DNA of 29,707 bases from a virus. Each line of letters opens with the position of its first letter. Within the stretch, counting starts at the first letter, position 1. The notes beneath the pieces are model-generated. The model was given only the letters and a program-made list of their open reading frames with translations, did no database searches and had not been told where the DNA came from. Made by a program: the position numbers and the translations under genes. The DNA lies in the IMG/VR virus record IMGVR_UViG_3300001849_000285, positions 1 to 29,707 of that record, one strand, 5' to 3'. Positions 1 to 15,597 of this stretch are shown piece by piece.

Positions 1-72
1 CATGTGTCGTTTACGGCGACGTTTCCTGAAATGCACGATTTTTGGACGCACTGTCAACAATTAGCGATATAG
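1..72 (+). CDS. C-terminal end of an unidentified protein (partial)
   Basis: Frame 1 is open from the window edge to a TAG at 70-72 and gives about 23 residues ending ...WTHCQQLAI. It is chosen over the other two frames because its stop lies 11 nt before the ATG at 84, which matches the tight spacing of the following genes. Frame 2 is also open, to 64, so the assignment is not certain. Too little is visible to name a function. Confidence 0.4.
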   Translation, partial: HVSFTATFPEMHDFWTHCQQLAI

Positions 73-83
73 AGAGAACACGT

Positions 84-839
84 ATGCAACTACCTGATTT
101 AACCCTCGTTCGGCAATTAGTGTCGATTGATTCCCGTATGGATGCCACGCTTGATAGTGGTGTAAAGATGGATTCGTATTTTCATACGGCTACGGCGTCT
201 CAGTGGCTTCGAAAAGATTTTATTGATACGGTGCGCCAGTATCGCAGTAAAGAGAAATATACCTCAGGCTATGAATATTTTTGTGGAAATGGATTACTGG
301 GGTTTGAAATGCTTGGCTTTAATTTTGTCGAGCATATGACATTTACGGATTATTACGATGTCGCCTTACAGGAATGTATGGATACGGCATTTTTTAATGG
401 TTTGACTTCACGAGTTCGCACACAGTGCGTGACCAGTGTCAGTGAATTACCATCTACCACACAATTTGATTTCGTGGTCAGTGTTCCTCCTCATATTAAT
501 GGTACCTTACATGATGTGCGTCAACGGTTATTGACAACACCTTCAGTATGGGCACCGGGATACCCCAAAGCGGCTGATGCTGAAAATATTTTACGAATGG
601 TCGATGAGGATTGGGCACAACATTCCGACTTCTTTACGCATCTGGGTGCTCACACGACCGAAGACGTGGATGTGTTTATATACGAACCGTTGTTATATCC
701 CGAATTAATCGCGTCCATTCAAGAAGGCGGTTTCTATATTTACGAAGGATATGATATTCCACACTTGTTTGAACAGATGCCCGCCAAAGCGCAACCTGAA
801 ATTCATCAGTATGGAAAGATTTATCATTTGAAAAAGTAA
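84..839 (+). CDS. SAM-dependent methyltransferase-like protein
   Basis: A 251-residue protein that looks like a class I methyltransferase. Residues 64-72 (YFCGNGLLG region) match the glycine-rich SAM-binding loop, D89 sits where the acidic residue ending strand 2 is expected, and SVPPHI (133-138) resembles the (N/D/S)PP motif IV of enzymes that methylate planar nitrogens. The ATG at 84 is preferred over a TTG at 42 because AGAGAGA lies just upstream and the TTG would overlap the preceding reading frame. Six nt separate it from the next gene, so the two are probably co-transcribed. The substrate is unknown; the neighbours suggest a sugar, glycan or nucleotide. The motif I match is moderate, so the fold is likelier than the exact chemistry. 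Confidence 0.55.
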   Translation: MQLPDLTLVRQLVSIDSRMDATLDSGVKMDSYFHTATASQWLRKDFIDTVRQYRSKEKYTSGYEYFCGNGLLGFEMLGFNFVEHMTFTDYYDVALQECMDTAFFNGLTSRVRTQCVTSVSELPSTTQFDFVVSVPPHINGTLHDVRQRLLTTPSVWAPGYPKAADAENILRMVDEDWAQHSDFFTHLGAHTTEDVDVFIYEPLLYPELIASIQEGGFYIYEGYDIPHLFEQMPAKAQPEIHQYGKIYHLKK

Positions 840-844
840 GAACT

Positions 845-1864
845 ATGAAAATTCTTGTGACGGGTGGTGCAGGATTTATCGGGCACCACCTCATTGAATC
901 ATTATTAGTGGAAACTGATTGGGACATTGTTTGTGTAGATCGATTGGATTATAGTGGTAATCTCAATCGACTGCATGAAGTCTTATCGCACTATTCTGAA
1001 CAGGACCGGCGACGAGTCTCGTTTGTGTTTCATGATCTCCGTGCGCCGATTAATCCGCAAGTACGAAAAGCGATTGGCACAGTACAGTATATTGTACATC
1101 TAGCCGCAGGTTCCCATGTAGATCGTTCTATCGAATATCCGCTTGATTTTGTGATGGATAATGTGGTCGGTACCGCACATCTATTAGAATATGCTCGCAC
1201 GTGTACCGATTTGGATTTATTGGTCTATTTTTCGACCGATGAAATTTTTGGACCTGCGGATGCCTTGACCGCGTTTCGAGAAAATGATCGGTATAATTCC
1301 ACGAATCCCTATTCTGCGACCAAAGCCGGGGGTGAAGAACTTGTTGTCGCGTATGCAAACACATATCATGTTCCGGCGATTGTTACGCATACCATGAATG
1401 TCTTTGGACCTCGCCAACATCCCGAAAAGTATATTCCCTCATGCATTCGTAAAATTCGAGATGGAGAAACTATCGCGGTTCATGCGAATCCGTCAAAAAC
1501 AAAAGCGGGTTCTCGACATTATATTCATGCCAGCGATGTTGCCTCAGCGGTTTTATTTTTATTACGATTTAATCGGTCTGAATTACTGCGTCAACCCAGT
1601 GCAACCCTCTGTCAGAAATTTAATATTGTCGGGTCTCAAGAAATCGATAATTTAGAACTTGCACAGATTATTGCTCACATTCAACAGAAACCGTTATGTT
1701 ATGAATTGATTGACTATCATACGGCCCGACCCGGACATGATTTGCGATATGCCTTAGATGGGTCGAAGATGCGTAATATGGGTTGGCAACCGGCCCCCAT
1801 TCATGATAGACTGATACATACGGTTCAATGGTCGTTACTTCATCATAGGTGGCTCGAAATATGA
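845..1864 (+). CDS. NAD-dependent epimerase/dehydratase, dTDP-glucose 4,6-dehydratase-like
   Basis: A 339-residue extended short-chain dehydrogenase. It begins MKILVTGGAGFIG, the GxxGxxG NAD-binding Rossmann motif (residues 7-13). It has STDE at 130-133, the Thr-Asp-Glu signature of RmlB-type 4,6-dehydratases, and the catalytic YxxxK as YSATK (156-160). Its length is typical of RmlB (about 340-360). The enzyme would convert an NDP-glucose to its 4-keto-6-deoxy form in the cytoplasm. No rmlA, rmlC or rmlD partner is visible here, so it probably draws on host sugar nucleotides or acts on a related substrate. Its stop overlaps the next start as ATGA (1861-1864), indicating translational coupling. 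Confidence 0.85.
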   Translation: MKILVTGGAGFIGHHLIESLLVETDWDIVCVDRLDYSGNLNRLHEVLSHYSEQDRRRVSFVFHDLRAPINPQVRKAIGTVQYIVHLAAGSHVDRSIEYPLDFVMDNVVGTAHLLEYARTCTDLDLLVYFSTDEIFGPADALTAFRENDRYNSTNPYSATKAGGEELVVAYANTYHVPAIVTHTMNVFGPRQHPEKYIPSCIRKIRDGETIAVHANPSKTKAGSRHYIHASDVASAVLFLLRFNRSELLRQPSATLCQKFNIVGSQEIDNLELAQIIAHIQQKPLCYELIDYHTARPGHDLRYALDGSKMRNMGWQPAPIHDRLIHTVQWSLLHHRWLEI

Positions 1865-2649
1865 CGTTTTCAACAATTGTTCGTCCGACCGTGTTTAAAC
1901 CAGCACGAGAGACGTTTGTCAAGACTCAACCCTTATCTTATTGTGTGATTGATAATTTTGTAGAACCTGCGATTGCTGAACAATTAGTCGCAGAATTTCC
2001 ATCATACACCGAGGAATCGCTGTGGAATGGGAATTATGCCAATCCTCTAGAAATTAAAAAGACATGTAATATTTGGGATCGTTTTCCACAAACTACCTAT
2101 TCCGTTTTACAATATTTTCAATCTGCGTTGTTTGTTTCATATCTGCGGTATTTGACTCATGAGATTGAATTACTCGTTGATCCCGGATTACATGGTGGCG
2201 GATGGCATAGTCACGCACGCGGGGGTATTCTTAATCCACATATGGATTATGATGCCCATCCGAAGATTCCGAATTTTCAACGTCGATTGAATATGATTCT
2301 GTATCTGACTCCGGCATGGCAAGAGACATGGGGTGGGCATCTTGGTTTATTTGGAAATTCAACCGATGCGCCCTATATCGAAATTGCACCGTTATTTAAT
2401 AGGGCTGTGATTTTTATTACAACAGATCAGTATCATGGTATCAGTCGTCCCATTACCTGTCCTTCAACCGTATCACGGCAATCTCTTGCGGTGTATTATG
2501 GTATTCCATTAACACAACAGAATCGGACTCGACGCCGCGCTCTCTTTGCTCCAACAAAAGACCAACAAGATGATCCGACCATTCAGGATTTAATTGAACG
2601 TCGTAAAGATGTCACATCGGAACATGTTATGGATTGGAGTCGAATCTGA
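1861..2649 (+). CDS. 2-oxoglutarate/Fe(II)-dependent oxygenase (prolyl-4-hydroxylase-like fold)
   Basis: A 262-residue protein with the facial triad of 2OG-Fe(II) oxygenases: HMD (H127, D129) and a distal histidine in QYHGISRP (H192). A downstream arginine in SRQSLAVYY (R206) is placed to bind 2-oxoglutarate. The preceding LNMILYLTPAW...GGHLGLF segment is typical of the prolyl-hydroxylase-like double-stranded beta helix. These enzymes hydroxylate peptides, sugars or nucleobases; the target cannot be read here. The ATG at 1861 is chosen because it overlaps the previous stop as ATGA. An upstream GTG at 1849 is possible but would only add four residues. Confidence 0.8.
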   Translation: MTFSTIVRPTVFKPARETFVKTQPLSYCVIDNFVEPAIAEQLVAEFPSYTEESLWNGNYANPLEIKKTCNIWDRFPQTTYSVLQYFQSALFVSYLRYLTHEIELLVDPGLHGGGWHSHARGGILNPHMDYDAHPKIPNFQRRLNMILYLTPAWQETWGGHLGLFGNSTDAPYIEIAPLFNRAVIFITTDQYHGISRPITCPSTVSRQSLAVYYGIPLTQQNRTRRRALFAPTKDQQDDPTIQDLIERRKDVTSEHVMDWSRI

Positions 2650-4040
2650 TGATTTGGGCATTTGAAAAAGCATTTCCAGAATATGTCAATTTTATTGATT
2701 GTCCTGACGTAAATGCGTCTGGTATTCGTCGTTTTACACAGTCCCCGGTTTTTGGCACGTTTTTAACGGATTATCATTTTGGAAATGATTATATTTCTGC
2801 GACACGAACACAGAAGCACGATTTTTTACAGTTAGATGGGCAGACCTATACTTTTCAAACCAAACGTGTCACATCGTTAAATGACACAGATCGGTATGTT
2901 ATTCCCACGGGCGTCACACATCATCCTGAAAATTGGTGTGGAGACCCCGCAGGATTTTATCGTGTGCAAAATGCTCACGATGTTAATAAACGAAATCTGT
3001 TTCATTATTTACATCCTCGATATCTTCGTGATTTACAACAACAGCGGGCATTCTTATTACTTGATCAAACTCATGAAGGATATCAAACAGAATGGTTATG
3101 GGGATGGTTTCACTATCATTTGGAGCGATATCAAATTCCTGCTACGCAAATCATTTATATCACGGGAAATATGAAATCTCGCGAACAATATGAGCGATGG
3201 TGTGAGGTCCAGCATATACGCACACGCATGTATGTCGTACCCTTTCCGATTTTTGAACGAATGATTTATATGACGGCTCTGTATCGTGAAAAAGATCAGG
3301 GTCTTCCGCCACTTCCAACACTGGATGAACAAATTCAATTTAAGACACAACATCTTGAAGATATTCGTGCATTTAATATTCTTCAAAAACGTTTGCGTCG
3401 TCATCGTATGTGGTTTTATAAATTACTATCCGACCATGATTTATTGCGTGATGCGATTGTTAGTATGAATAAATTTACTGGGCATGATACACGCTATAAT
3501 GGTCGAGAAATGACACAGGATGATATTGAACGGTTGAATCAGAATTTGCCATTAGTTCCTCCACAGTATTTTTCACGGGATCCGTATTTGATCGATTTTA
3601 CCAGTGATCCCGGCGAGCCATACCAAAAAGAAATGAGTGAAGATATTATTCTTCGAACATGGGTATCGGTTATTAGTGAAGCGTCATTTGGGGATGATGA
3701 ACATACGTGTTTTATTAGTGAAAAAACATTTAAGAATTTTGCAACATGTCATCCGTTTTATATCATGGGGAATCGATATTCATTAGAAGTTCTTCGAGAA
3801 ATGGGATACCAGACATTTAGCCCCTATATTGATGAATCATATGACCGGTATTCGACATGGGAACGATTTGATGCCATCATTGAAAGTATGAAACGATTTT
3901 CTTTAAAAACGCCAAAGGAGAAACTCTTTGGTTTCTTAGGGTTACAAGAAATTTTACGTGAAAATCAAGAAAATTTGAAACGAAACGTGAAACAATTTCC
4001 TTCCGTCTTAGCGGATATGTTCAAATATATCGGAGAATAA
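2649..4040 (+). CDS. Putative glycosyltransferase-like protein of the surface/decoration cluster
   Basis: A 463-residue protein starting at an ATG that shares one base with the previous stop (TGATG), with GGAG upstream. Its clearest landmark lies around residues 354-390: FISEKTFKNFATCHPFYIMG followed by LREMGYQTF. This resembles the (I/V)(S/T)EK...(H)P...G donor-binding region of GT-B enzymes such as the alpha-1,3-fucosyltransferases. No classical N-terminal signature is obvious. Its place between an oxygenase and an SGNH-like protein in a tightly coupled run supports a role in glycan assembly. The family call is tentative; it could be a phage-specific enzyme of unknown activity. Confidence 0.45.
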   Translation: MIWAFEKAFPEYVNFIDCPDVNASGIRRFTQSPVFGTFLTDYHFGNDYISATRTQKHDFLQLDGQTYTFQTKRVTSLNDTDRYVIPTGVTHHPENWCGDPAGFYRVQNAHDVNKRNLFHYLHPRYLRDLQQQRAFLLLDQTHEGYQTEWLWGWFHYHLERYQIPATQIIYITGNMKSREQYERWCEVQHIRTRMYVVPFPIFERMIYMTALYREKDQGLPPLPTLDEQIQFKTQHLEDIRAFNILQKRLRRHRMWFYKLLSDHDLLRDAIVSMNKFTGHDTRYNGREMTQDDIERLNQNLPLVPPQYFSRDPYLIDFTSDPGEPYQKEMSEDIILRTWVSVISEASFGDDEHTCFISEKTFKNFATCHPFYIMGNRYSLEVLREMGYQTFSPYIDESYDRYSTWERFDAIIESMKRFSLKTPKEKLFGFLGLQEILRENQENLKRNVKQFPSVLADMFKYIGE

Positions 4041-4043
4041 CAC

Positions 4044-5072
4044 GTGTATTCTAGACAGTATGAATTTATCAATACAGATTTACGCCGAACTCGCGCTGCC
4101 GTGATTGGAATGGGCTGTTCTTTTGTGGAAGGTCAAGGCGCATTTGATGACGAAATGTATGAGATGTATGATTTTGAGGTCAAACGAGTTGGTCGTCCTG
4201 CCGCACTAGACGTTTCTGTAGAAGAACTTCGGCGTATTTCCATACGATATGATATTCCTTTTGATGAACAGACTCAAAATGTGAATTGGACGGTTATGGA
4301 ATATCGAAATGCTTTTGTGAATGTGTTATGCTCAAAATATCTTTTTCATGAATATACTCCCATTAATTTAGGATTACGGGGTCATGGTAATCGCGCTACT
4401 ATTAAAGAAGTTTATGCTCATCCCGCAATCGACTGGCATTTAATTGATAAATTAATTGTTGTATGGATGCCTTCGGGGTTAGAACGTTTTGATTTTGTAT
4501 CTGATATGTGGTTTGATGCTGCACATTGGGCGTGTTTATGGCCACAACCAGAAAATGTTCCTGTGAATAAACCTCGCTATAATATATGGAAAGGTTACAA
4601 AGAAGCTATATGGAGCGATAAATCAGAAGTACTTGAACAAATTATGAATGCCTGTGAATTGCAGACATGGTGTCAAGCGCATAATGCCGATTTGATCATT
4701 ACCCCTGCTTTTGATACAAGATATACTCGTGAATATTTTTTAAGTGCGCTCCGCAAAAATTATCATCGAACAATGGAATTGGAACGTCAAGAGAATCCTT
4801 ATATTCCAGAATGGCACAATGAGAACTTTCGGGCCGAGCATTTAATTGATTCTTTTCCGTGGAATAATTTTTTTCGGCCACAAGATTTTTTAACATTTTC
4901 TGATTTTACCTTGCAACAAGAAGGCATTTGTGGTAATAATATATGGGAATGGCTTGGAATAGGAACTCCGAAGCGATGGATGACTCCATGTTGTCATCCG
5001 TCAGCCAAAGCTCATGATTTATATGCAAAATTATTGAGCGAATATTTAGTGAATCAACAAATAGTCACATAA
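4044..5072 (+). CDS. SGNH/GDSL-hydrolase-like protein
   Basis: A 342-residue protein starting with GTG at 4044, served by GGAGA at 4032-4036, 3 nt after the previous stop. Residues 21-32 (IGMGCSFVEGQG) fit block I of SGNH hydrolases in the GCS variant, with S26 as candidate nucleophile. Near residue 317, CCHPSAKAHDLYA resembles block V, with His as catalytic base, although the usual Asp three residues before the His is not in place. SGNH enzymes are esterases or O-acyltransferases often acting on glycans. Two more SGNH-like genes lie at 10133-11852. Activity is inferred only from fold-level motifs. Confidence 0.5.
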   Translation: MYSRQYEFINTDLRRTRAAVIGMGCSFVEGQGAFDDEMYEMYDFEVKRVGRPAALDVSVEELRRISIRYDIPFDEQTQNVNWTVMEYRNAFVNVLCSKYLFHEYTPINLGLRGHGNRATIKEVYAHPAIDWHLIDKLIVVWMPSGLERFDFVSDMWFDAAHWACLWPQPENVPVNKPRYNIWKGYKEAIWSDKSEVLEQIMNACELQTWCQAHNADLIITPAFDTRYTREYFLSALRKNYHRTMELERQENPYIPEWHNENFRAEHLIDSFPWNNFFRPQDFLTFSDFTLQQEGICGNNIWEWLGIGTPKRWMTPCCHPSAKAHDLYAKLLSEYLVNQQIVT

Positions 5073-5075
5073 ATA
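5068..5075 (+). promoter_or_regulatory. T4-late-type promoter octamer CATAAATA
   Basis: CATAAATA resembles the T4 late -10 element TATAAATA. It straddles the end of the SGNH-like gene and lies 23 nt before the start of the 36-residue ORF. Similar octamers also occur inside genes by chance in this AT-rich DNA, so only the position supports it. Confidence 0.35.
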
Positions 5076-5098
5076 TTTTATAAAAAAGGAGGAGTCGT

Positions 5099-5209
5099 AT
5101 GAATGTTATAGTGTCATTCTATAAATGGATCTTGCGTCGAATTCGCATTTATAAGATACGGCGACATATTGATAAAATTCGCAAACACGATCCGTATATT
5201 TACGATTAA
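5099..5209 (+). CDS. Small basic protein, 36 residues
   Basis: A short ORF, MNVIVSFYKWILRR... to ...DPYIYD, ending in TAA at 5207-5209. It has a near-perfect Shine-Dalgarno (AAGGAGGAG, 5086-5094) at ideal spacing, the strongest in this part of the window, and fills the space between two larger genes almost exactly. It is rich in Arg, Lys and Ile with a hydrophobic start (residues 3-12), so it could be a peripheral membrane or nucleic-acid-binding peptide. No family is recognised. Confidence 0.6.
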   Translation: MNVIVSFYKWILRRIRIYKIRRHIDKIRKHDPYIYD

Positions 5210-5220
5210 AAAGGATAATT

Positions 5221-6738
5221 ATGAGTGAGTATGGGCTTTCTGCTGATGTGGCTGAATCGCAATTAAAAGAAATTTCGCCAACGATGTGTTATGCGAAATG
5301 GCTTCAAGTTTCGTTACATTTAACGAATGGTCGTACTCATAGTTGTTATCATCCCCCCACGCATATTATTCCTCTAGAAGATTTGAAACGTAATCCATCT
5401 GTGTTGCATAATACTTCGCAAAAAAAGATGGAACGCGAACAAATGTTAAATGGAGAAAAACCTGAAGGTTGCTCGTATTGCTGGAATATTGAAGCCACGG
5501 GCAATCGAAGTGACCGAATTTATCGTTCTGGTGAATATTGGGCACAAAATGGACGCCGAGACATTGAAGAAGCCGGTTCGACCGGTGATGTTCGTCCACG
5601 ATATGTTGAAGTTAATTTTAATCAAGCCTGTAATTTTAAATGTATGTATTGTTCACCGCATCTCAGCCATAGTTGGGAAGAAGATGTCCATGAACATGGG
5701 CCATTTATGATTACCAATCCGTCTGGACATCGAGTAGGACATAATGATATTGTTTATCTTGAAAAAGAACAATTAATGCCGTTTAAAGGGAATCCTCAAG
5801 ATAATCCATACGTGGAAGCCTTTTGGAAGTGGTGGCCAGATATCTATCGTCATCTTGAAGTTTTTCGTTTAACCGGTGGCGAACCGTTGATGGATGTCAA
5901 CACATATAAGATTTTAGATTTTATCTATGAACATCCAAATGCATGGCTTGAATTAAGTATTACGTCAAATTTATGCCCCCCAAAATCGAGTTTGTTTGAG
6001 ACATTTGTTGAAAAACTTCAAAACATTGAAAAGACTCAAGTATGGCATGACCCACTTCGGTTTAATCCGGGTTCTGGGAATAATTGGTATGTCAATAATG
6101 CGGTTAAACACACATCTATTTTTGTGAGTTTAGATTCAGTCGGGTCTCAGGCTGAATATATTCGTGATGGTTTACAATTTGATCTGTTACAGAAAAATGT
6201 TCGTCATTTATTAGATAATACCATTTATACGACGGTTACGTTTATTAACACGTTTAATGCCCTAAGTGTACCTCGTTTTGAAGATTTCTTGGCATATATT
6301 TTATCGCTTCGTCGCGAATATGCCAAGAGTCGTCAAGGAATACGCTATGTAAAAATTGATGTTGATGATCCATATATGACACATCCTGATCGAGAAGTAT
6401 TACCTGTTCAACGGGTATGGTTTGATATTCCATTGCTTCGTTATCCGGATTGGCAAAGTATTCAAGTTCTTCCCAATAAATACGTTTCATACATGGAAAA
6501 TGCGATTCAATTCATGGAAGAAAATCAAAATGTTGATGATTTTGTTGGATTCTATGATTTTGAAATTGATAAAGCCAAGAGAAATTGGCAGTGGATGAAA
6601 GAGCGTTCCAAGTTACCGATTACAGAGATACGACGCCATAAGAAAAACTTTATAGATTTTTATAAACAATATGATTTGCGTCGAAACAAAAATTTTATTA
6701 AAACCTTTCCAGAATTAGCTGAGTTGTTACATGATTGA
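5221..6738 (+). CDS. Radical SAM enzyme (phage 'twitch'-type)
   Basis: A 505-residue protein with the radical SAM cluster motif CX3CX2C as CNFKCMYC (C137, C141, C144). GGEP follows in RLTGGEPLMD near residue 219, the SAM-binding motif of the partial TIM barrel. An upstream GCSYCW pair (C84, C87) and a further Cys at 42 may bind metal or structure the N-terminus. The enzyme would generate a 5'-deoxyadenosyl radical; its substrate is unknown. AAGGA precedes the ATG at 5221. Its last codons overlap the carbamoyltransferase start (ATGATTGA, 6731-6738), so the two are translationally coupled and probably act in one pathway. Confidence 0.88.
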   Translation: MSEYGLSADVAESQLKEISPTMCYAKWLQVSLHLTNGRTHSCYHPPTHIIPLEDLKRNPSVLHNTSQKKMEREQMLNGEKPEGCSYCWNIEATGNRSDRIYRSGEYWAQNGRRDIEEAGSTGDVRPRYVEVNFNQACNFKCMYCSPHLSHSWEEDVHEHGPFMITNPSGHRVGHNDIVYLEKEQLMPFKGNPQDNPYVEAFWKWWPDIYRHLEVFRLTGGEPLMDVNTYKILDFIYEHPNAWLELSITSNLCPPKSSLFETFVEKLQNIEKTQVWHDPLRFNPGSGNNWYVNNAVKHTSIFVSLDSVGSQAEYIRDGLQFDLLQKNVRHLLDNTIYTTVTFINTFNALSVPRFEDFLAYILSLRREYAKSRQGIRYVKIDVDDPYMTHPDREVLPVQRVWFDIPLLRYPDWQSIQVLPNKYVSYMENAIQFMEENQNVDDFVGFYDFEIDKAKRNWQWMKERSKLPITEIRRHKKNFIDFYKQYDLRRNKNFIKTFPELAELLHD

Positions 6739-8203
6739 ATGGGGAATTACCGCAGGGTCACATGATGCATCTATTGCGGTCATTGATGGACACTATATTC
6801 GTTATGCGTCACAAGCCGAACGATATAGTGGTCGTAAGAATGATAAAGAGTTAAACAATGCGTTAATAGAAGCTGCTCTTCAATATGGTGAGCCGACGCT
6901 TATTCATTGGTATGAAAATTCCTATAAAAAGCGATTGCGCCAGTGGTGGGCGGGTCAACCATCATCACCAATTCATCCATCTCATACTCTTCAAAATTTT
7001 GATGCTTTTAAGAAAATTACCACTCCATTTAAATGGATGAATGGAAATCATCATAAGAGTCATGCCGCCGCAGGATTTTATACCTCAGGATTTGATGAAG
7101 CGGCTATTCTTGTTGTCGATGCCATTGGGGAATTTGTGACAACAAGTATTTGGAAAGCTCATGATCAAACGATGAAATTGCTCTATGAAGAACGCTATCC
7201 GAATTCTCTAGGATTGTGGTATTCAGCAATGACTCAACGAATTGGTTTAAAGCCCAATGAAGAAGAATATATTTTGATGGGTGCTGCGTCCTATGGAGAC
7301 CCTTCTGTCTTTTATAAAGATATTAAAAAAACATTCTTCGAACCTTCGGATACCTATTCATTAAAAGAAAATCTTCATCGTGGGTGTTTGTGGTGGAGAG
7401 CCGATGAAGAATGGGATGAACAAACAAAATATGATATTGCCGCATCAACCCAATTAATTTATGAAGAAATTTTTGAACGATTGGTTTATAAAACTCTTCG
7501 TATGACCAAAATGAATAATTTGGTATTGATGGGTGGTTGTGCATTAAATTGCAAGGCTAATACGATTTCGCTTAAATATTTTGATAATGTATGGATTATG
7601 CCGAATCCCGGAGATTCTGGTTCTGCCATCGGTGCCGTTGTTGCCAATCGTCCACGTTCGCTCTATTGGCTTGGTCCCTACTTAGGTGAAAATATTGTAG
7701 GGTCGTATCCTATTGATAAAATTATTCATCATTTACAAACACGACAGATTGTTGGTGTCGCCAATGGACGAGCAGAATTTGGTCCTCGCGCACTGGGGAA
7801 TCGAAGTTTATTTGCCGACCCACGTTCAAAAGATATTCGTGATCGTGTAAACGAAATTAAAAAGCGGCAAGCCTTTCGACCATTTGCTCCTGTTATTCTT
7901 GAGCAGTATGCGAATCAATATTTTGATATGCCAATTAGTCAGACTCCGTATATGCAATTTGTCGTGAAGTGTCGGTATCCCGAAGAGTATCCCGGTATTG
8001 TTCATGTCGATGGCACAAGTCGTGTACAAACAGTATCGTTTGATCAACATCCAGAATTATATAAACTACTTAAAAAATGGTTTAGTTTGACCGGTTGCCC
8101 AATGCTGTTAAATACTAGTTTAAATATTCGCGGAGAAGCTATGGTTAATAATAGAGCAGATGCCCGTCGATTTCAAGAGACATATCATGTTCCTGTTGTG
8201 TAA
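6731..8203 (+). CDS. Carbamoyltransferase (NodU/CmcH/TobZ family)
   Basis: A 490-residue O-carbamoyltransferase. The N-terminal Kae1/Hsp70-like domain shows GITAGSHDASIAVI and NHHKSHAAAGF (the metal-binding histidine region), then LMGGCALNCKAN and PGDSGSAIGA. The C-terminal YrdC-like domain carries the hallmark EFGPRALGNRS (around residues 347-358). Such enzymes make carbamoyl-adenylate from carbamoyl phosphate and ATP and transfer the carbamoyl group to a hydroxyl of a sugar or small molecule. It is somewhat shorter than NodU (about 560-600). Coupling to the radical SAM gene and proximity to sugar-nucleotide and methyl/hydroxyl-modifying genes suggest modification of a glycan or nucleotide. 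Confidence 0.9.
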   Translation: MIEWGITAGSHDASIAVIDGHYIRYASQAERYSGRKNDKELNNALIEAALQYGEPTLIHWYENSYKKRLRQWWAGQPSSPIHPSHTLQNFDAFKKITTPFKWMNGNHHKSHAAAGFYTSGFDEAAILVVDAIGEFVTTSIWKAHDQTMKLLYEERYPNSLGLWYSAMTQRIGLKPNEEEYILMGAASYGDPSVFYKDIKKTFFEPSDTYSLKENLHRGCLWWRADEEWDEQTKYDIAASTQLIYEEIFERLVYKTLRMTKMNNLVLMGGCALNCKANTISLKYFDNVWIMPNPGDSGSAIGAVVANRPRSLYWLGPYLGENIVGSYPIDKIIHHLQTRQIVGVANGRAEFGPRALGNRSLFADPRSKDIRDRVNEIKKRQAFRPFAPVILEQYANQYFDMPISQTPYMQFVVKCRYPEEYPGIVHVDGTSRVQTVSFDQHPELYKLLKKWFSLTGCPMLLNTSLNIRGEAMVNNRADARRFQETYHVPVV

Positions 8204-9038: not shown

Positions 9039-9293
9039 ATGCCCAACTATGATTACCATTGTGAAGCATGTGGTTATAAATTTGAAAAATTTTATACTAT
9101 AGCTAATAGAAATACGCCCGAAAATGAGCCTTGTCCTTCATGTTCGGAAATGAATGTCAAGCAATCTCCGTGTTCCCCTGCATTTGGGGATGCGGTTCGA
9201 TTAGGTGTGAAAAAACCAGATAAGGGATTCAAAGAAGTTTTACAAAAAATCCATGAAAAAACACCCGGTTCTATCCTTAATAAAAACTTCTAA
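9039..9293 (+). CDS. FmdB-type zinc-ribbon protein
   Basis: An 84-residue protein beginning MPNYDYHCEACG, the typical start of FmdB/'putative regulatory' zinc ribbons. Four cysteines in two CxxC knuckles (C8/C11 and C32/C35) form the ribbon. The family is small and widespread, and its biochemical role is not settled. In a phage it could bind nucleic acid or a host protein. It is followed by a strong intrinsic terminator, so it closes the leftward accessory run. Confidence 0.85.
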   Translation: MPNYDYHCEACGYKFEKFYTIANRNTPENEPCPSCSEMNVKQSPCSPAFGDAVRLGVKKPDKGFKEVLQKIHEKTPGSILNKNF

Positions 9294-9320
9294 TCAATCT
9301 ACTCTTTCTCCGTCCTTATG

Positions 9321-9350
9321 ACCCATGAGCCATAACTCATGGGTTTTTTT
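9321..9350 (+). terminator. Intrinsic terminator
   Basis: A perfect 9-bp stem, ACCCATGAG (9321-9329) with CTCATGGGT (9336-9344), has a 6-nt loop and is followed directly by a run of T to 9350. It ends the + strand accessory transcript after the FmdB-like gene. Confidence 0.9.
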
Positions 9351-9377
9351 ATTTTCCTATTTTTCCAAAGGCCCGGT

Positions 9378-10136
9378 ATGTCTACCAAGAAAAACAAGAA
9401 AAACAAGGATTTTGAAATTGCTATTTCTTCAGAAGAAAAGAAAGTTCATATTGAAACAAATAAATGTAAAGTATCCTATGAAAACTTGCGCCATATTAAA
9501 CCCATAACAGAAACCCAAAAATCATTTTTTAAAAATTATGATTCCGGCGCAAAAACCTTTTTATTACATGGTGTCGCAGGAACTGGAAAAACATTTATTG
9601 CGTTATATAAAGCCTTGGAAGAAGTTCTTCGTAATCGACAACAGCAGAAAGTAGTTATTATTCGCTCTGCGGTGCCTTCACGTGATATTGGGCACTTACC
9701 GGGCGACGAGAAAGAAAAATCTGAAATATATCAAATTCCTTACATTGATATCTGTGAACGTCTCATTAATCATTCTCAATCGTTTTCTCGTCTCCAAGAA
9801 CAAAAATCTCTTGAGTTTCTTATTACTTCATTTGTCCGTGGTATCACATTAGATAATGCTATTATTATTGTGGATGAATGTCAGAATATGACTGATATGG
9901 AAATCAATTCCATTATGACACGCATTGGAAATAATAGCAAAATTATTTTCTGTGGAGATTTTCGTCAAACAGATTTAAATAAGAAAAATGATATGAGTGG
10001 CTTACAGGAATTTATTCAAACCATCAAATTAATGCCATCATTCCATATTTTAGAATTTGGAATAGACGATATTGTTCGGTCAGAAATCGTTAAGAGTTAT
10101 ATTATTGCTCGATTGACGTATGCCGATCAGCATTAG
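9378..10136 (+). CDS. phoH: PhoH-family ATPase
   Basis: A 252-residue P-loop ATPase. Walker A is GVAGTGKT (residues 65-72), and Walker B is IIIVDECQNM, with the acidic pair DE and a following Gln-Asn as in PhoH. FCGDFRQTDL matches the PhoH sensor region. PhoH is common in marine phages, where it is linked to phosphate stress and possibly RNA metabolism; its phage function is unproven. The ATG at 9378 is chosen over an upstream start at 9339 because the latter lies inside the terminator and adds an unlikely hydrophobic leader. The 3' end overlaps the convergent SGNH-like gene by 4 nt. Confidence 0.93.
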   Translation: MSTKKNKKNKDFEIAISSEEKKVHIETNKCKVSYENLRHIKPITETQKSFFKNYDSGAKTFLLHGVAGTGKTFIALYKALEEVLRNRQQQKVVIIRSAVPSRDIGHLPGDEKEKSEIYQIPYIDICERLINHSQSFSRLQEQKSLEFLITSFVRGITLDNAIIIVDECQNMTDMEINSIMTRIGNNSKIIFCGDFRQTDLNKKNDMSGLQEFIQTIKLMPSFHILEFGIDDIVRSEIVKSYIIARLTYADQH

Positions 10137-11047
10137 TATTGAGAACGGACGCCATCAAGTTTTTCAATAATAATATTAGCTAAACGTTCATTCGCTTGAG
10201 GTCCGGGATGAATTAAATCTCGCGCCATGCACTCGGGTTTGTGTGTTGATTGAAAGTAAAGTGGATCTTTAAAGTATGACTTATCAATCAACACATAATT
10301 TTTTTGTTCGTATGGCAATTCAATAAATGTGTCCAATCCTTCGATAAGAATGAGTGGTATATGTAAAAGCTGACAAATCGATACAACCATATGTATTGAT
10401 AAAAGATGTTTAAAATTATTGGCTCCTGATTCAATCTGACGAATAAAATAGTCGCTTTCATGCGTAATTGGCACATTCTCAGATTTTTGTGGGGCCGTTT
10501 GCATCTCTTTTGTTTCTAAGGCTATGGACTTATTTTTCACGGCCCATGAACCCAACACATTAATAGGTGAATAATTATTAATACTTTTTTTATGTGTCAA
10601 ACGAGAACGTTGTGTAATTTGAAAGATAACAAATTGGGGTTTTTTAATAGTAATCAATGAAAGCAAATTAAAGACACCTATCTCATTTGATGCCGCAGGG
10701 ATTCCTGCATTATAAATGGGAACATGAATTTTTTCAGAAACTTGTTCCAGAAAAGTATCATGTTTGTGAATGCCCACTCCTGCCGTTAAACTACATCCGA
10801 TTCCCAATCCATAATCCTCTGGAAAATCTTGTAAATCCAAAGCATTACGATGACCCTGAGAATTAAAAGTATACGTTAAACTTTCTTCCGTGTCTTTATA
10901 GAACCACGATTCTCCCATTTTTTCCCTATTGATTTTATACAAATTTGGATTATCAGATGAACACCAAAAATCTGTCACACGAGTATTTTCTTGTGGAGAA
11001 CGATTAAAATAACCAATAATTGAGTTGGGAAGCAGAATTTTATTCAT
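10133..11047 (-). CDS. SGNH-hydrolase-like protein A (tandem paralogue)
   Basis: A 304-residue protein. DYGLGIGCSLTAGVG (around residues 78-92) is SGNH block I in the GCS form, with S86 as nucleophile; RDLIHPGPQANERLA near residue 288 is block V with the Asp/His pair DxxH. It shares many residues with the adjacent 11040-11852 product (GHRN...L.D....YGL.IGCS.T.GVG, PIYNAG..., SN.I..FN, IFQ.T.R.R), so the pair arose by tandem duplication. The start at 11047 is chosen because it overlaps the upstream gene's stop (ATGAATAA). Likely an esterase or acyltransferase acting on glycans; substrate unknown. Confidence 0.65.
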   Translation of the reverse strand: MNKILLPNSIIGYFNRSPQENTRVTDFWCSSDNPNLYKINREKMGESWFYKDTEESLTYTFNSQGHRNALDLQDFPEDYGLGIGCSLTAGVGIHKHDTFLEQVSEKIHVPIYNAGIPAASNEIGVFNLLSLITIKKPQFVIFQITQRSRLTHKKSINNYSPINVLGSWAVKNKSIALETKEMQTAPQKSENVPITHESDYFIRQIESGANNFKHLLSIHMVVSICQLLHIPLILIEGLDTFIELPYEQKNYVLIDKSYFKDPLYFQSTHKPECMARDLIHPGPQANERLANIIIEKLDGVRSQY

Positions 11048-11852
11048 AGGATTGAAGTAAAGAAAAAAGTTGTTGGGCCATATTTGTATGACTACGAGAA
11101 CCCGGATGATTGCGGTCTCGTGCATAATCATCTTTCACAAATGTCCATGGGAGATATTGAATACGAGATTCAGCTAATAATGAGCGCATTTGTGTATTAA
11201 TAAAAAATTTAGGAAGAACATCAATAGCTTCAACAAAAATAATAGGTATATTCAATAGACGGAAATATTGAATCAGAGATATAAACATAAAAATATGATT
11301 AAATTCCGTAATACCCTCTTGACTATATTTAGTGAATAATGTTTGTAAGTGTGGTTCGGATTGAATACACCATGGACCTATATGACGTATTTGGTCTATA
11401 ATTGTTTGGTGACGCATTTTCATGGATGGAAAGCGGTGTCGGTCTGTCACTTGAAAAATAATAAAACGCGGTGGTTTAATTCGTGAAATTTCTATCGTAT
11501 TAAAACATGAAATAGCATTACTTGAACCATTTAATCCTGCATTATATATAGGAATGTGTAATCGTTGGCTTAATTGATTACTATACATATCATGGACATT
11601 TAATCCTACGCCAAATGTATAACTACACCCTATGGCTAATCCATACGGTGTATCGATATCTTCGAGTTCATAATCATTTCGATGCCCAAACGAATTCACT
11701 TTGTATCGTACGGGTTTTGTGCTATACTCCCAGTTGGTAAATTTTTGTTGATTTTCAATAAATGACTTTTCACTATCAGGATTGAGATAATCAAATTCCT
11801 TCTGCTGTGAATCAACATGGGTACCAATAATAGTATTATAAAGTTTCAACAT
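11040..11852 (-). CDS. SGNH-hydrolase-like protein B (tandem paralogue)
   Basis: A 270-residue paralogue of the gene downstream. Block I is GLAIGCSYTFGVG (around residues 71-83; S77), and block V is RDRNHPGSRSHTNMAQ near the C-terminus, with the Asp/His pair. It is about 34 residues shorter than its partner, chiefly between the central strands and block V. No signal peptide is seen, so both act in the host cytoplasm or are packaged. Its ATG is only 13 bp from the divergent exonuclease start, and no clear ribosome binding site precedes it. Confidence 0.65.
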   Translation of the reverse strand: MLKLYNTIIGTHVDSQQKEFDYLNPDSEKSFIENQQKFTNWEYSTKPVRYKVNSFGHRNDYELEDIDTPYGLAIGCSYTFGVGLNVHDMYSNQLSQRLHIPIYNAGLNGSSNAISCFNTIEISRIKPPRFIIFQVTDRHRFPSMKMRHQTIIDQIRHIGPWCIQSEPHLQTLFTKYSQEGITEFNHIFMFISLIQYFRLLNIPIIFVEAIDVLPKFFINTQMRSLLAESRIQYLPWTFVKDDYARDRNHPGSRSHTNMAQQLFSLLQSYE

Positions 11853-11865
11853 ACAGCGAGTTTAT

Positions 11866-12552
11866 ATGAATTATACACATGTCCATAATTATTCTGATTT
11901 CGCACAATCTTTTACAAAAAGTGATGGCACTCGTATTTATCGCACGCTCACAGGTTCTGTCTATCCTTCTGTCACTACGGTGATGTCCCATCATACTAAG
12001 CCCGGAATTATGGCGTGGAAAGAGTCTGTTGGACCAGAAGAAGCCAATAAAATTTCTCGACAGGCTACCATACGTGGTTCACGAGTACACAATCTTGTGG
12101 AACAAACACTTAAAAATAAAGATTATCAGCCGTATTCTTTAACGCTGCCTCTACCGGTTTTAATGATGTTTGATAGTCTTCTTCCATACCTACAGAAGAT
12201 TAACAATATTCATGCTATTGAAACGGCATTGTATAGCGATTTTTTACGGTTAGCCGGTCGAGTAGATTGTATTGCCGAGTATGAGAATGAATTATCGATC
12301 ATTGATATCAAAACAGCATCGAAGGCAAAAAAGAAAGAATATATTTCTCATTATTTCATGCAGTGTTCTGCATATGCCATTATGTATGAAGAATTGACGC
12401 ATATCCCTGTTCCTAATATTATCGTTATTATGGCGGTTGAAGATGATTATCCAATTATTTTTAAAGAACGCCGAAATACATGGGCCAAACAACTTCTCTC
12501 TGTTCGAGACCAATTTGAGACCGATAACCACTTGACTTACGCTCAGGTTTGA
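11866..12552 (+). CDS. PD-(D/E)XK exonuclease (MGME1/RecB-like)
   Basis: A 228-residue nuclease. RGSRVHNLVE (70-79) is the N-terminal RG...H motif; GRVDCIAEY (D134) and IIDIKT (D147, K149) form the PD-(D/E)XK core; FMQCSAYAIMYE (Q166...Y170) is the trailing QxxxY motif of RecB/MGME1 exonucleases. PSVTTVMS near residue 34 also matches the family. It would degrade single-stranded or flapped DNA and probably serves phage recombination or replication. It lies directly upstream of the tmRNA gene. Confidence 0.85.
   Translation: MNYTHVHNYSDFAQSFTKSDGTRIYRTLTGSVYPSVTTVMSHHTKPGIMAWKESVGPEEANKISRQATIRGSRVHNLVEQTLKNKDYQPYSLTLPLPVLMMFDSLLPYLQKINNIHAIETALYSDFLRLAGRVDCIAEYENELSIIDIKTASKAKKKEYISHYFMQCSAYAIMYEELTHIPVPNIIVIMAVEDDYPIIFKERRNTWAKQLLSVRDQFETDNHLTYAQV
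11870..11875 (-). promoter_or_regulatory. Possible sigma70 -10 hexamer for the SGNH pair
   Basis: On the minus strand this reads TATAAT, an exact -10 consensus 17 nt upstream of the SGNH B start and inside the first codons of the divergent exonuclease. No good -35 is seen at 17-18 nt, so this is a weak call. Confidence 0.25.
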
Positions 12553-12557
12553 GATAG

Positions 12558-12565
12558 TATAAATA
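12558..12565 (+). promoter_or_regulatory. T4-late-type promoter TATAAATA for the tmRNA
   Basis: An exact T4 late octamer just after the exonuclease stop and just before the tmRNA acceptor piece. A sigma70-like alternative overlaps it: TTGACT at 12532-12537 with TAGTAT at 12555-12560, spacing 17. Confidence 0.5.
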
Positions 12566-12632
12566 ATACTACAATCGTTGATGTTTTGTGAAATTTGTTA
12601 GGACGGCGGTTCGAACCCGCCCGCCTCCACCA

Positions 12633-12733
12633 TAAACGTATATGTGAGGGGCTAGTTGCATGGCACACACGAACAAAATGCAACCCATCGCGCAATAGTG
12701 TACATAAAGGCGATGAGCATATACGTTTTTGAT
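12633..12733 (+). other. Intervening segment of the permuted tmRNA precursor
   Basis: This 101-nt segment between CCA and the coding piece would be removed during maturation. It is closed by a perfect 11-bp helix (12634-12644 with 12718-12728). Two inner hairpins follow: GTTGCAT/ATGCAAC (12655-12661 with 12678-12684) and CATCGC/GCGATG (12686-12691 with 12710-12715). The closing helix sits next to the acceptor stem, so it would hold the two halves together before processing. Confidence 0.8.
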
Positions 12734-12809
12734 GGGGGCGACTTTGGATTCGACTGGCAGACGTAGGAAGACGGAGATTGTTGACTAGCAAAGTGCTAAA
12801 ACAATAAAT

Positions 12810-12845
12810 GCTAACAATAACGTAGCATATGCAGTAGCGGCCTAA
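12810..12845 (+). other. tmRNA proteolysis-tag reading frame (ANNNVAYAVAA, stop TAA)
   Basis: From a GCT resume codon at 12810 the frame encodes A-N-N-N-V-A-Y-A-V-A-A and stops at TAA (12843-12845). The terminal AVAA matches the degradation signal of known alphaproteobacterial tags. The stop codon lies in the loop of a hairpin (GCAG 12831-12834 with CTGC 12853-12856, GGC with GCC inside), the usual helix 5 arrangement. Upstream, ATTGTT/AACAAT (12777-12782 with 12800-12805) enclosing TAGC/GCTA is in the place of pseudoknot 1. Confidence 0.9.
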
Positions 12846-12861
12846 AAGCCATCTGCGGGGT

Positions 12862-12900
12862 ATGGACACCACCTAGCAACAGAACGGGTCCATTTTTATT
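12862..12900 (+). terminator. Hairpin and T-run ending the tmRNA coding piece
   Basis: ATGGAC (12862-12867) pairs with GTCCAT (12888-12893), extended by the flanking ACC/GGGT region, and is followed by TTTTTATTTT. It probably ends the tmRNA transcript, though a 20-nt loop is long for an intrinsic terminator. Confidence 0.5.
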
Positions 12901-12922: not shown

Positions 12923-13489
12923 ATGAAAAGTCTTAATAGCTTTTTAAAATCATTTTGGATGTTATTCATTATTCTTGGTATGTTACACCATACACTGAAT
13001 TATGTACAAACACGTATCGAAAATGAATGGAGAGTGTATACGACCGAATCATATTCTACATTTATTCATTTGAAGAAAGAAATTTCATACCGCGATTTAA
13101 TTATCAAGAAAAATGAAATTAAATGTTTAGCCGATAATATCTATTATGAAGCGGCTACTGAATCTTATAAAGGACAGTTAGCGGTAGCCACTGTAACATT
13201 GAACAGAGTCAAAAATAAAAATTTTCCTAAAACATTCTGTGAAGTGGTCTATCAACATTACTCAGGAACATGTCAATTTTCGTGGACGTGTACATCACAA
13301 AAAAAGCCGATTCCACATTTATATAAAATCGCACATGATATTGCTATTAAAGTAATTATTGATAATTTTCATCTTGAAACATTACCTGCAAATGTATTAT
13401 ACTATCATTCTGATTATATACAACCTAATTGGAAATTACAGCGAGTAGCCCAAATAGGTAGACATATTTTTTATAAAACAGAAGCGTGA
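12923..13489 (+). CDS. Membrane-anchored SleB-type cell wall hydrolase (candidate endolysin)
   Basis: A 188-residue protein with one N-terminal membrane segment (about residues 9-25) and a Hydrolase_2/SleB domain: CLADNIYYEAATESYKGQLAVATVTLNRVKN (68-98), in which E76 is the candidate catalytic glutamate, then FCEVVYQ...CQFSWTC and YYHSDYIQPNW. SleB-type enzymes cleave peptidoglycan glycan strands. The uncleaved-looking anchor suggests a signal-arrest-release type endolysin exported by the host. No holin is recognised next to it. AAAGG before the ATG is the ribosome binding site and can pair with CCTTT upstream (12903-12916). Confidence 0.82.
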   Translation: MKSLNSFLKSFWMLFIILGMLHHTLNYVQTRIENEWRVYTTESYSTFIHLKKEISYRDLIIKKNEIKCLADNIYYEAATESYKGQLAVATVTLNRVKNKNFPKTFCEVVYQHYSGTCQFSWTCTSQKKPIPHLYKIAHDIAIKVIIDNFHLETLPANVLYYHSDYIQPNWKLQRVAQIGRHIFYKTEA

Positions 13490-13510: not shown

Positions 13511-13786
13511 ATGGAATTAGTCATGGAAGCTGAAAAAATTACAAATGCTTTTTTAATTACTAAAGAGTTTCAAAGCTCAACTGAATTTTCAATGTTCATC
13601 GAGCGTGAAGCCAAAAAAAGAAAGACCACATATCTCGATATGATTGTGGACTATTGTCAGAAAAAAGATATTGAAATGGAATCGATTACCAGTATTATTA
13701 CCCCTTCCCTCAAAGAAAAAATCAAATTTCAATCCAACGAATTGAATCTTCTCAAGAAAAAAATTAAAAACAAATTACATTTTTAG
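13511..13786 (+). CDS. gp33-like late transcription coactivator
   Basis: A 91-residue protein, ITKEFQSSTEFSMFIEREAKKRKTTYLDMIVDYCQKKDIEMESITSIITPSLKEKIKFQSNELNLLK. The pattern YxDxxxxYC...V/I...LI.PSLKEKI...A/S.ELN matches the short late-promoter accessory proteins (gp33) of T4-like marine phages as I remember them. In T4, gp33 bridges RNA polymerase and the gp45 clamp to fire TATAAATA promoters. Location two genes before gp32 echoes the T4 order (32-59-33). AAAGGGG at 9-nt spacing supports the start. The call rests on pattern recognition, not alignment. Confidence 0.65.
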   Translation: MELVMEAEKITNAFLITKEFQSSTEFSMFIEREAKKRKTTYLDMIVDYCQKKDIEMESITSIITPSLKEKIKFQSNELNLLKKKIKNKLHF

Positions 13787-14087: not shown

Positions 14088-14990
14088 ATGTCGTTTACAT
14101 CGTTTGCTGAAATGCGTCGTAGTAGTAATTTTGATGAACTCAAGAAGGAAATGGATCGTCTTACCACCTCTTCATTTGAAAAGAAGACCGATGACCGTCT
14201 ATGGAAGGTCTCAATGGATAAGGCAGGAAATGGTTCTGCGGTTATTCGTTTTCTTCCTGCACCTAAGGGTGAGAAGTGGCCTTGGGTTCGCGTTTGGTCA
14301 CATGGTTTTCAGGGTCCAACCGGAAAGTGGTATATTGAAAATTCACTGACGACACTTAATCAGCCAGATCCCGTGTCTGAACTGAATAGTCAGTTGTGGA
14401 ATTCTGGTATTGAAAGTAATAAGGATATTGTTCGTAAGCAGAAGCGTCGTACAGACTACTATGCGAATATCCTTGTGGTGAAGGATCCCGCAAATCCTCA
14501 GAACGAAGGAAAGGTGTTCATTTTCAAGTTCGGGAAGAAGATCTTTGATAAGATCAAGGATTTGATGAATCCCCAGTTTGAAGATGAGAAGCCGGTCGAT
14601 CCGTTTAATTTCTGGGAAGGTTGCAATTTTAAGCTGCGTATTCGTCGCGTTGAAGGATATGCCAACTATGATAAGTCTGAGTTTTCTGAACCCAGTCCAC
14701 TTTCTGATGATAATGATTATATCGAAGGTATCTGGAATCAGCAACACTCGTTGAGTGCATTTATTGATCCAAGCAACTTCAAGACATATGATGAATTGAA
14801 GTCTCGTTTGGAAAGTGTCCTCAAGCCTAGTGCAAGTGGTTCAACCTTTGCTCGCTTGTCTGCTGAAAAGTCACAGTTGACTGACCCAGATGACGAAATG
14901 TATGTCAAGAGTGCCGTTGCCGCATCATCAAATGCCGCTCCAAAGCCATTAGATGATGATATGGAAAGTTTCTTTGAAGGTCTGAAGTAA
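14088..14990 (+). CDS. 32: gp32-like single-stranded DNA-binding protein
   Basis: A 300-residue homologue of T4 gp32. Matches in order: LWKVSMDKAGNGSAVIRFLPAP, HGFQGPTGKWYIE, KRRTDYYANILVVKDPANPQNEGKVFIFKFGKKIFDKI, and PFNFWEGCNFKLRIRRVEGYANYDKSEF, followed by an acidic C-terminal tail (DDDMESFFEGLK). It coats ssDNA during replication, recombination and repair. The zinc-binding Cys/His cluster of T4 gp32 is absent: its place holds LTTLNQPDPVSELNSQLW. AAGGAG is ideally placed upstream, and a strong terminator follows. All 29 lysines use AAG, unlike the neighbouring genes. Confidence 0.95.
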   Translation: MSFTSFAEMRRSSNFDELKKEMDRLTTSSFEKKTDDRLWKVSMDKAGNGSAVIRFLPAPKGEKWPWVRVWSHGFQGPTGKWYIENSLTTLNQPDPVSELNSQLWNSGIESNKDIVRKQKRRTDYYANILVVKDPANPQNEGKVFIFKFGKKIFDKIKDLMNPQFEDEKPVDPFNFWEGCNFKLRIRRVEGYANYDKSEFSEPSPLSDDNDYIEGIWNQQHSLSAFIDPSNFKTYDELKSRLESVLKPSASGSTFARLSAEKSQLTDPDDEMYVKSAVAASSNAAPKPLDDDMESFFEGLK

Positions 14991-15021: not shown

Positions 15022-15597
15022 ATGTTCAAAAAACTCATCATTGGAATACTGTTGTTCGTGTTTTCCACAACAGTATCTGCACAAAATAATTGTTTAAAAC
15101 CAACGAATTTAACTCATCGAGTGCATGAACCTGCTCGATTAAATTACAAATTTATAGGCGGGTCGTGGACAGATGCCACCAAACAATGTGTAATAGATGC
15201 GTTTTATTCGTGGAATATTGCATTGCGTCAGGGGAATAGAAAAATTCAATTTATTTCTACACCTTTTAGACCAGTCAATATTAGTATAGTTCGTTCACCA
15301 CTACCGGTCGAAATTGGTGGAGCATTAACGGATATTAAATTAGGGGATAAGAATTATTTTCAATCGTCTGGGTTAATTATTACATCAGATACACAAATAG
15401 TTAATAATTGCTCAACCATTTATAAAATTACATTACATGAAATCGGACATATTTTGGGATTAGCAGATTTTACTTATAATAAATTTGTTAGCGATAGACC
15501 GATTCCATCTGTGATGAATGCTATGGGTGGCAATGATGATGATCGAGAATTTATTCCATTATTTCCCACAGTGTGTGATATCAATGCTATTCCGTAA
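15022..15597 (+). CDS. Secreted metzincin-like zinc protease
   Basis: A 191-residue protein with a signal peptide (FKKLIIGILLFVFSTTVSA, cleavage likely after A20). It carries the zinc motif HEIGHILGLAD (H139, E140, H143, D149), which fits HExxHxxGxxD with Asp as third ligand, as in snapalysin-type metzincins. SVMN (M165) is a plausible Met-turn. It would be exported to the periplasm or outside to cleave protein. The start lies right against the gp32 terminator with no ribosome binding site, so expression is puzzling. Its 3' end overlaps the convergent glycosyltransferase by 11 nt. Confidence 0.75.
   Translation: MFKKLIIGILLFVFSTTVSAQNNCLKPTNLTHRVHEPARLNYKFIGGSWTDATKQCVIDAFYSWNIALRQGNRKIQFISTPFRPVNISIVRSPLPVEIGGALTDIKLGDKNYFQSSGLIITSDTQIVNNCSTIYKITLHEIGHILGLADFTYNKFVSDRPIPSVMNAMGGNDDDREFIPLFPTVCDINAIP

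Follow-up and report, generated by a model that had tools for sequence, protein, structure and literature searches.

Two-piece tmRNA was reportedly described in Caulobacter by Keiler and colleagues in 2000, and the tmRNAs of mycobacteriophages Bxz1 and Wildcat and of Bacillus phage G are not known to be other than one-piece molecules. These last three are among the other phage-encoded tmRNAs described to date (PMC4131195), and an earlier survey of phage genomes arrived at 53 suggested two-piece forms in 133 unique tmRNA structures (50 marine or aquatic; PMC9004378). Permuted phage tmRNA genes are already known, and we find them to be widespread in IMG/VR contigs and common in aquatic phages; the gene described here is itself one more member of the known phage two-piece tmRNAs. 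It lies in a stretch of 29,707 bases (hereafter the window) that is a whole IMG/VR virus record and carries genes of a T4-like aquatic myophage (PhoH, exonuclease, gp33, gp32, baseplate hub and tail tube cap).

The nearest systems for comparison are the Pelagibacter (SAR11) phage Mosig (MT647606) and the Methylophilales (OM43) phage Melnitz (MZ577097), which like the window have a permuted tmRNA in a Kyanoviridae myophage, with the annotated SsrA placed, as here, between a PD-(D/E)XK exonuclease and the late-transcription coactivator gene (gp33). The spacer between the two pieces is 101 nt in the window and 142 nt in Melnitz, and the tag is ANNNVAYAVAA as opposed to ANDNYVPVDYALAA and GEDNFALAA in the Melnitz/Mosig pair. 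Also unlike that pair, the window has a cell wall hydrolase gene between the tmRNA and gp33, no Rfam match to a glutamine riboswitch in the vicinity of the gene, and a promoter that is late-type and not clearly early. The alphaproteobacterial two-piece tmRNA (RF01849) has the same gene order and the same split into acceptor and coding pieces, and has in common with the window the 3' domain GGGGU...ACCU...GCAACAGAA and the spacer ends CCACCAuaaa...uuuugau. The window, however, has the canonical T-loop TTCGAAC together with GGATTCGAC, where the alphaproteobacterial consensus has a different T-loop and GGAUCGAC, and in the window the P2-to-tag region is shorter and the spacer longer.

The gene and its two predicted pieces

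The original prediction was of a circularly permuted phage tmRNA gene in which the T-arm, the acceptor 3' strand and CCA lie 5' of the acceptor 5' strand, and it is borne out by covariance model, ARAGORN, structure and synteny alike (Table 1). A search with covariance models for permuted tmRNA, which had been put forward as a check, matched Rfam RF04321 (tmRNA_permuted) at 12570-12845 (+) with 98.2 bits against a gathering score of 47 (E 3.3e-18) and covered the model over its whole length (1-213 of 213), while RF01849 (alpha_tmRNA) matched 12528-12894 with 72.2 bits. ARAGORN independently called a permuted tmRNA (tmRNA*) with the tag ANNNVAYAVAA*. The alternative of a chance tRNA-like sequence, which has no point in its favor, is refuted by the covariance match and the synteny; given the E of 3e-18, independent calls by two programs and tmRNA genes at the equivalent position in relatives, its probability is practically nil. 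That the permuted, phage-encoded, two-piece tmRNA gene is real is thus supported.

Table 1. Positions in the window of the tmRNA features and of the neighboring genes.
Feature	Position	Strand	Remarks
Exonuclease, upstream member of the exo-ssrA-gp33 neighborhood	11866..12552	+	PHROG 298, E 1.6e-64
T4-type late promoter octamer TATAAATA	12558..12565	+	6 bp before likely start 12571
Acceptor piece (~62 nt): P2 3' strands, T-arm, acceptor 3' strand, encoded CCA	12571..12632	+	5' end inferred
Intervening segment, 101 nt, expected to be excised; 12-bp outer stem and two inner hairpins	12633..12733	+	folding
Coding piece: acceptor 5' strand GGGGGCG, GGATTCGAC domain, P2, tag frame, 3' pseudoknot	12734..12898	+	3' end approximate
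Tag reading frame, ANNNVAYAVAA and stop	12810..12845	+	ARAGORN, structure reading
Terminal pseudoknot motif (PK2-like): S2 GGGU/ACCU, S1 AUGGAC/GUCCAU, conserved AACAGAA	12858..12893	+	
Cell wall hydrolase	12923..13489	+	PF07486, E 2.6e-23
gp33-type late transcription coactivator	13511..13786	+	PHROG 254
gp32-type single-stranded DNA binding protein	14088..14990	+	

The sequence itself shows the acceptor piece finishing with GGAC-GGCGG-TTCGAAC-CCGCC-CGCCTCC-A-CCA at 12632, and GGGGGCG begins at 12734, in agreement with the predicted ends; the acceptor piece, expected to be about 60 nt, comes to ~62 nt. When the two predicted pieces (12571-12632 and 12734-12784) were co-folded, both helices that had been proposed to form between the two parts were recovered, namely a 7-bp acceptor stem (P1, CGCCUCC/GGGGGCG) with G-U as its third pair (G3-U70) and an 8-bp P2 (UUUGUUAG/CUGGCAGA), along with a canonical T-arm (5-bp T-stem GGCGG/CCGCC, loop TTCGAAC) and a further helix, UGUUUU/AAGACG, beyond P2. 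P2 was absent from the best, minimum-energy fold of the whole coding piece with the acceptor piece. A G-U at the third acceptor pair (G3-U70) is the alanine identity element of tmRNA. The tag frame is open and has a hydrophobic, alanine-rich end (ANNNVAYAVAA*).

These features bear on the possibility that the RNA is a decoy that inhibits the host system by binding its SmpB or ribosomes and leaving trans-translation unfinished, as proposed for mycobacteriophage DS6A, since an RNA of the DS6A type, consisting of the tRNA-like domain only, inhibits tmRNA (PMC11915505, PMC4131195). For the window this seems improbable: a decoy would have no need whatever of the coding piece, yet here the tag frame is intact with its hydrophobic ending, CCA and G3-U70 are kept, and the tags of relatives differ while their frames stay open. 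The best explanation, in which we place high confidence, is that a T4-like (Kyanoviridae-type) aquatic phage carries a permuted ssrA in complete form, whose two paired pieces would serve ribosome rescue dependent on host SmpB.

Pseudoknots and the spacer

The region 3' of the tag has the layout of a terminal pseudoknot (GGGUAUGGAC...ACCU...AACAGAACGGGUCCAU), and a similar layout can be drawn in other compared phage tmRNAs with other base pairs; for the window copy alone the PK2-like motif is not significant, with 24 of 100 shuffles doing as well. Upstream of the tag no classic PK1 was recognised by structure reading, a 5-bp hairpin (UAGCA/UGCUA) being found there instead. The gene is indeed as small as first proposed, with little room for pseudoknots 2-4, but the oddness attributed to this does not stand: compactness is expected because two-piece tmRNAs typically keep PK1 and PK2 only (review, PMC3985003).

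The outer 12-bp stem of the spacer extends the acceptor stem, and the folding z is −2.0 for the spacer alone and −5.0 with the acceptor stem included. For comparison we used the 81 non-redundant phage loci with spacers of 40 nt or more among the loci listed, 67 of which form an outer helix of 8 bp or more (vs. 4.4% of shuffles). No inner architecture is shared across these 81 listed loci, and the number of inner hairpins is the same as in shuffles. The outer spacer stem is a general feature of the permuted phage tmRNA group, and it may hold the two halves close to each other so that RNase P cleavage and 3' processing can take place, while the inner part varies freely. Rfam gave no known riboswitch in the spacer, and a match to mir-1277 (26 bits vs. 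a cut-off of 81) was discarded as below threshold and implausible in a phage.

Two permuted tmRNA genes on viral contigs, L046 (3312-3342) and L118 (G005:C1:36900-37900, ~470-500), are nearly spacerless; a 6-nt loop (ACTCAT and ATTCAC, respectively) caps their acceptor stem and neither gene encodes CCA, so that either the 3' end would have to be trimmed and a CCA added, or the RNA would remain in one piece. The 142-nt spacer of Melnitz (L075, MZ577097, ~9291-9432) has an open frame after a GGAG motif (MFKWLSKTRLVVITRDYFRERNRK...), which continues into the coding piece.

Promoter motif and proposed rescue

The late promoter octamer TATAAATA adjoins the start of the covariance-model match. Its three copies in the window are no more than expected by chance in number, and each of them precedes a gene by 6-43 bp on the coding strand. 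Among the loci listed, 112 phage permuted tmRNAs have enough upstream sequence for a count, and ATAAATA precedes 32 of them compared with 3.9 in shuffles (maximum 10), an enrichment of ~8-fold, with a single occurrence in the downstream control for the same 112.

A weak sigma-70 candidate in the window (TTGACT-17-TAGTAT, 9 of 12 matches) overlaps the late octamer, which leaves the timing of expression uncertain. A perfect TTGACA at sigma-70 spacing stands before some of the ATAAATA-type loci, L021, L139 and Melnitz among them, and most of the T4-like ones, the window included, are without one. The 26 listed T4-like loci with ATAAATA comprise 19 with at most 3 of 6 matches to the -35 box at 16-18 bp and 7 with 4-6 matches, so most look late-type and both promoter classes occur. 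The notion that the octamer is merely a sigma-70 -10 box is thereby disfavored for most of these 26 listed loci, given the poor -35 (at most 3/6) in 19 of them. It is likely that TATAAATA would act as a late promoter for the window tmRNA; for Melnitz, its authors proposed early expression (PMC9004378).

Building on the observed gene, structure, tag frame, synteny and promoter motif, we infer transcription start, cleavage, charging and rescue from known tmRNA biology. The TATAAATA late promoter at 12558 would probably drive the synthesis of a single precursor, after which host RNase P would cut before GGGGGCG (12734) and 3' tRNA processing by 3' nucleases would expose the encoded CCA at 12632, the 101-nt spacer being lost through these two cleavages. 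The acceptor and coding pieces would remain paired via P1 and P2, be charged with alanine (G3-U70) and bind SmpB, which the host would have to supply, as none of the scanned window proteins was recognised as SmpB. The addition of ANNNVAYAVAA would then rescue ribosomes that stall on broken mRNAs in the course of infection.

Prevalence and genome neighborhood

Pattern scans of IMG/VR gave 10 loci with a 3-7 nt spacer (counted after CCTCCA) and, with the spacer counted after CCTCCACCA, 93 loci at 15-45 nt, at least 120 at 60-90 nt and 63 at 91-121 nt. Because known members supplied the sequence features on which the patterns rest, divergent forms are undercounted. In bacterial genomes two patterns, aimed at the tmRNA of a host or at long spacers in bacteria, returned nothing, which says little because they required GGATTCGAC and the alphaproteobacterial consensus is GGATCGAC. 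A blastn search with the gene region had no match among 50,697 phage records, indicating no isolate close at the DNA level. A single mismatch separates the window from a second contig, IMGVR_UViG_3300001842_000212, along a match of 10,852 bp, and this contig also has the tmRNA gene.

The gene was predicted to sit between an exonuclease and a wall hydrolase in a T4-like phage, which the matches to PHROG 298 upstream and PF07486 downstream confirm; with the exonuclease and the gp33-type gene on the same strand as the tmRNA, the Kyanoviridae-type neighborhood is present. The order exonuclease, tmRNA, gp33 is common to L077, L046 and L028. Removal of near-duplicates left 117 non-redundant permuted tmRNAs among the IMG/VR loci listed, 73 of which have T4-like core genes on the fetched stretch; within 4 kb and on the same strand, the exonuclease lies upstream in 53 and gp33 downstream in 46. 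When exonuclease relatives were fetched by protein, ARAGORN called a tmRNA in 2 of 42 stretches (L076, the near-identical second contig, and L077), so the gene is patchy across the wider group.

This synteny also bears on whether the gene is a non-functional remnant of host ssrA that the phage gained through recombination, such as might occur during integration, as ssrA is a common integration site and fragments of it occur in prophages (PMC9004378). We consider such an origin highly improbable, given that the gene is complete and full-length by covariance model, that divergent T4-like phages hold it in the same neighborhood in many cases, and that no integrase family appears among the matches of the window proteins scanned. 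On the preferred reading of a working phage ssrA, we would suggest, tentatively, that the permuted gene has long been settled in the exonuclease-gp33 region of many T4-like aquatic phages, and that in part of them, this phage included, a late promoter of the phage itself would supply rescue late, not early as for Melnitz, with the long spacer perhaps persisting as a stable excised RNA.

Elsewhere in the window, positions 42-8203 hold a block of sugar/modification type (nucleotide-sugar epimerase, radical-SAM-like protein, Nol-like carbamoyltransferase) that also has two long proteins without a PHROG match. A 191-aa protein at 15022-15597, with no PHROG or Pfam match, has a signal-like start and a zinc-protease-like motif (HEIGHILGL). 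The opposite strand (10133-11852, −) encodes, in the interval separating PhoH from the exonuclease, two adjacent paralogue-like proteins with no PHROG match that have motifs in common, such as YGLxIGCSxTxGVG and HPG.
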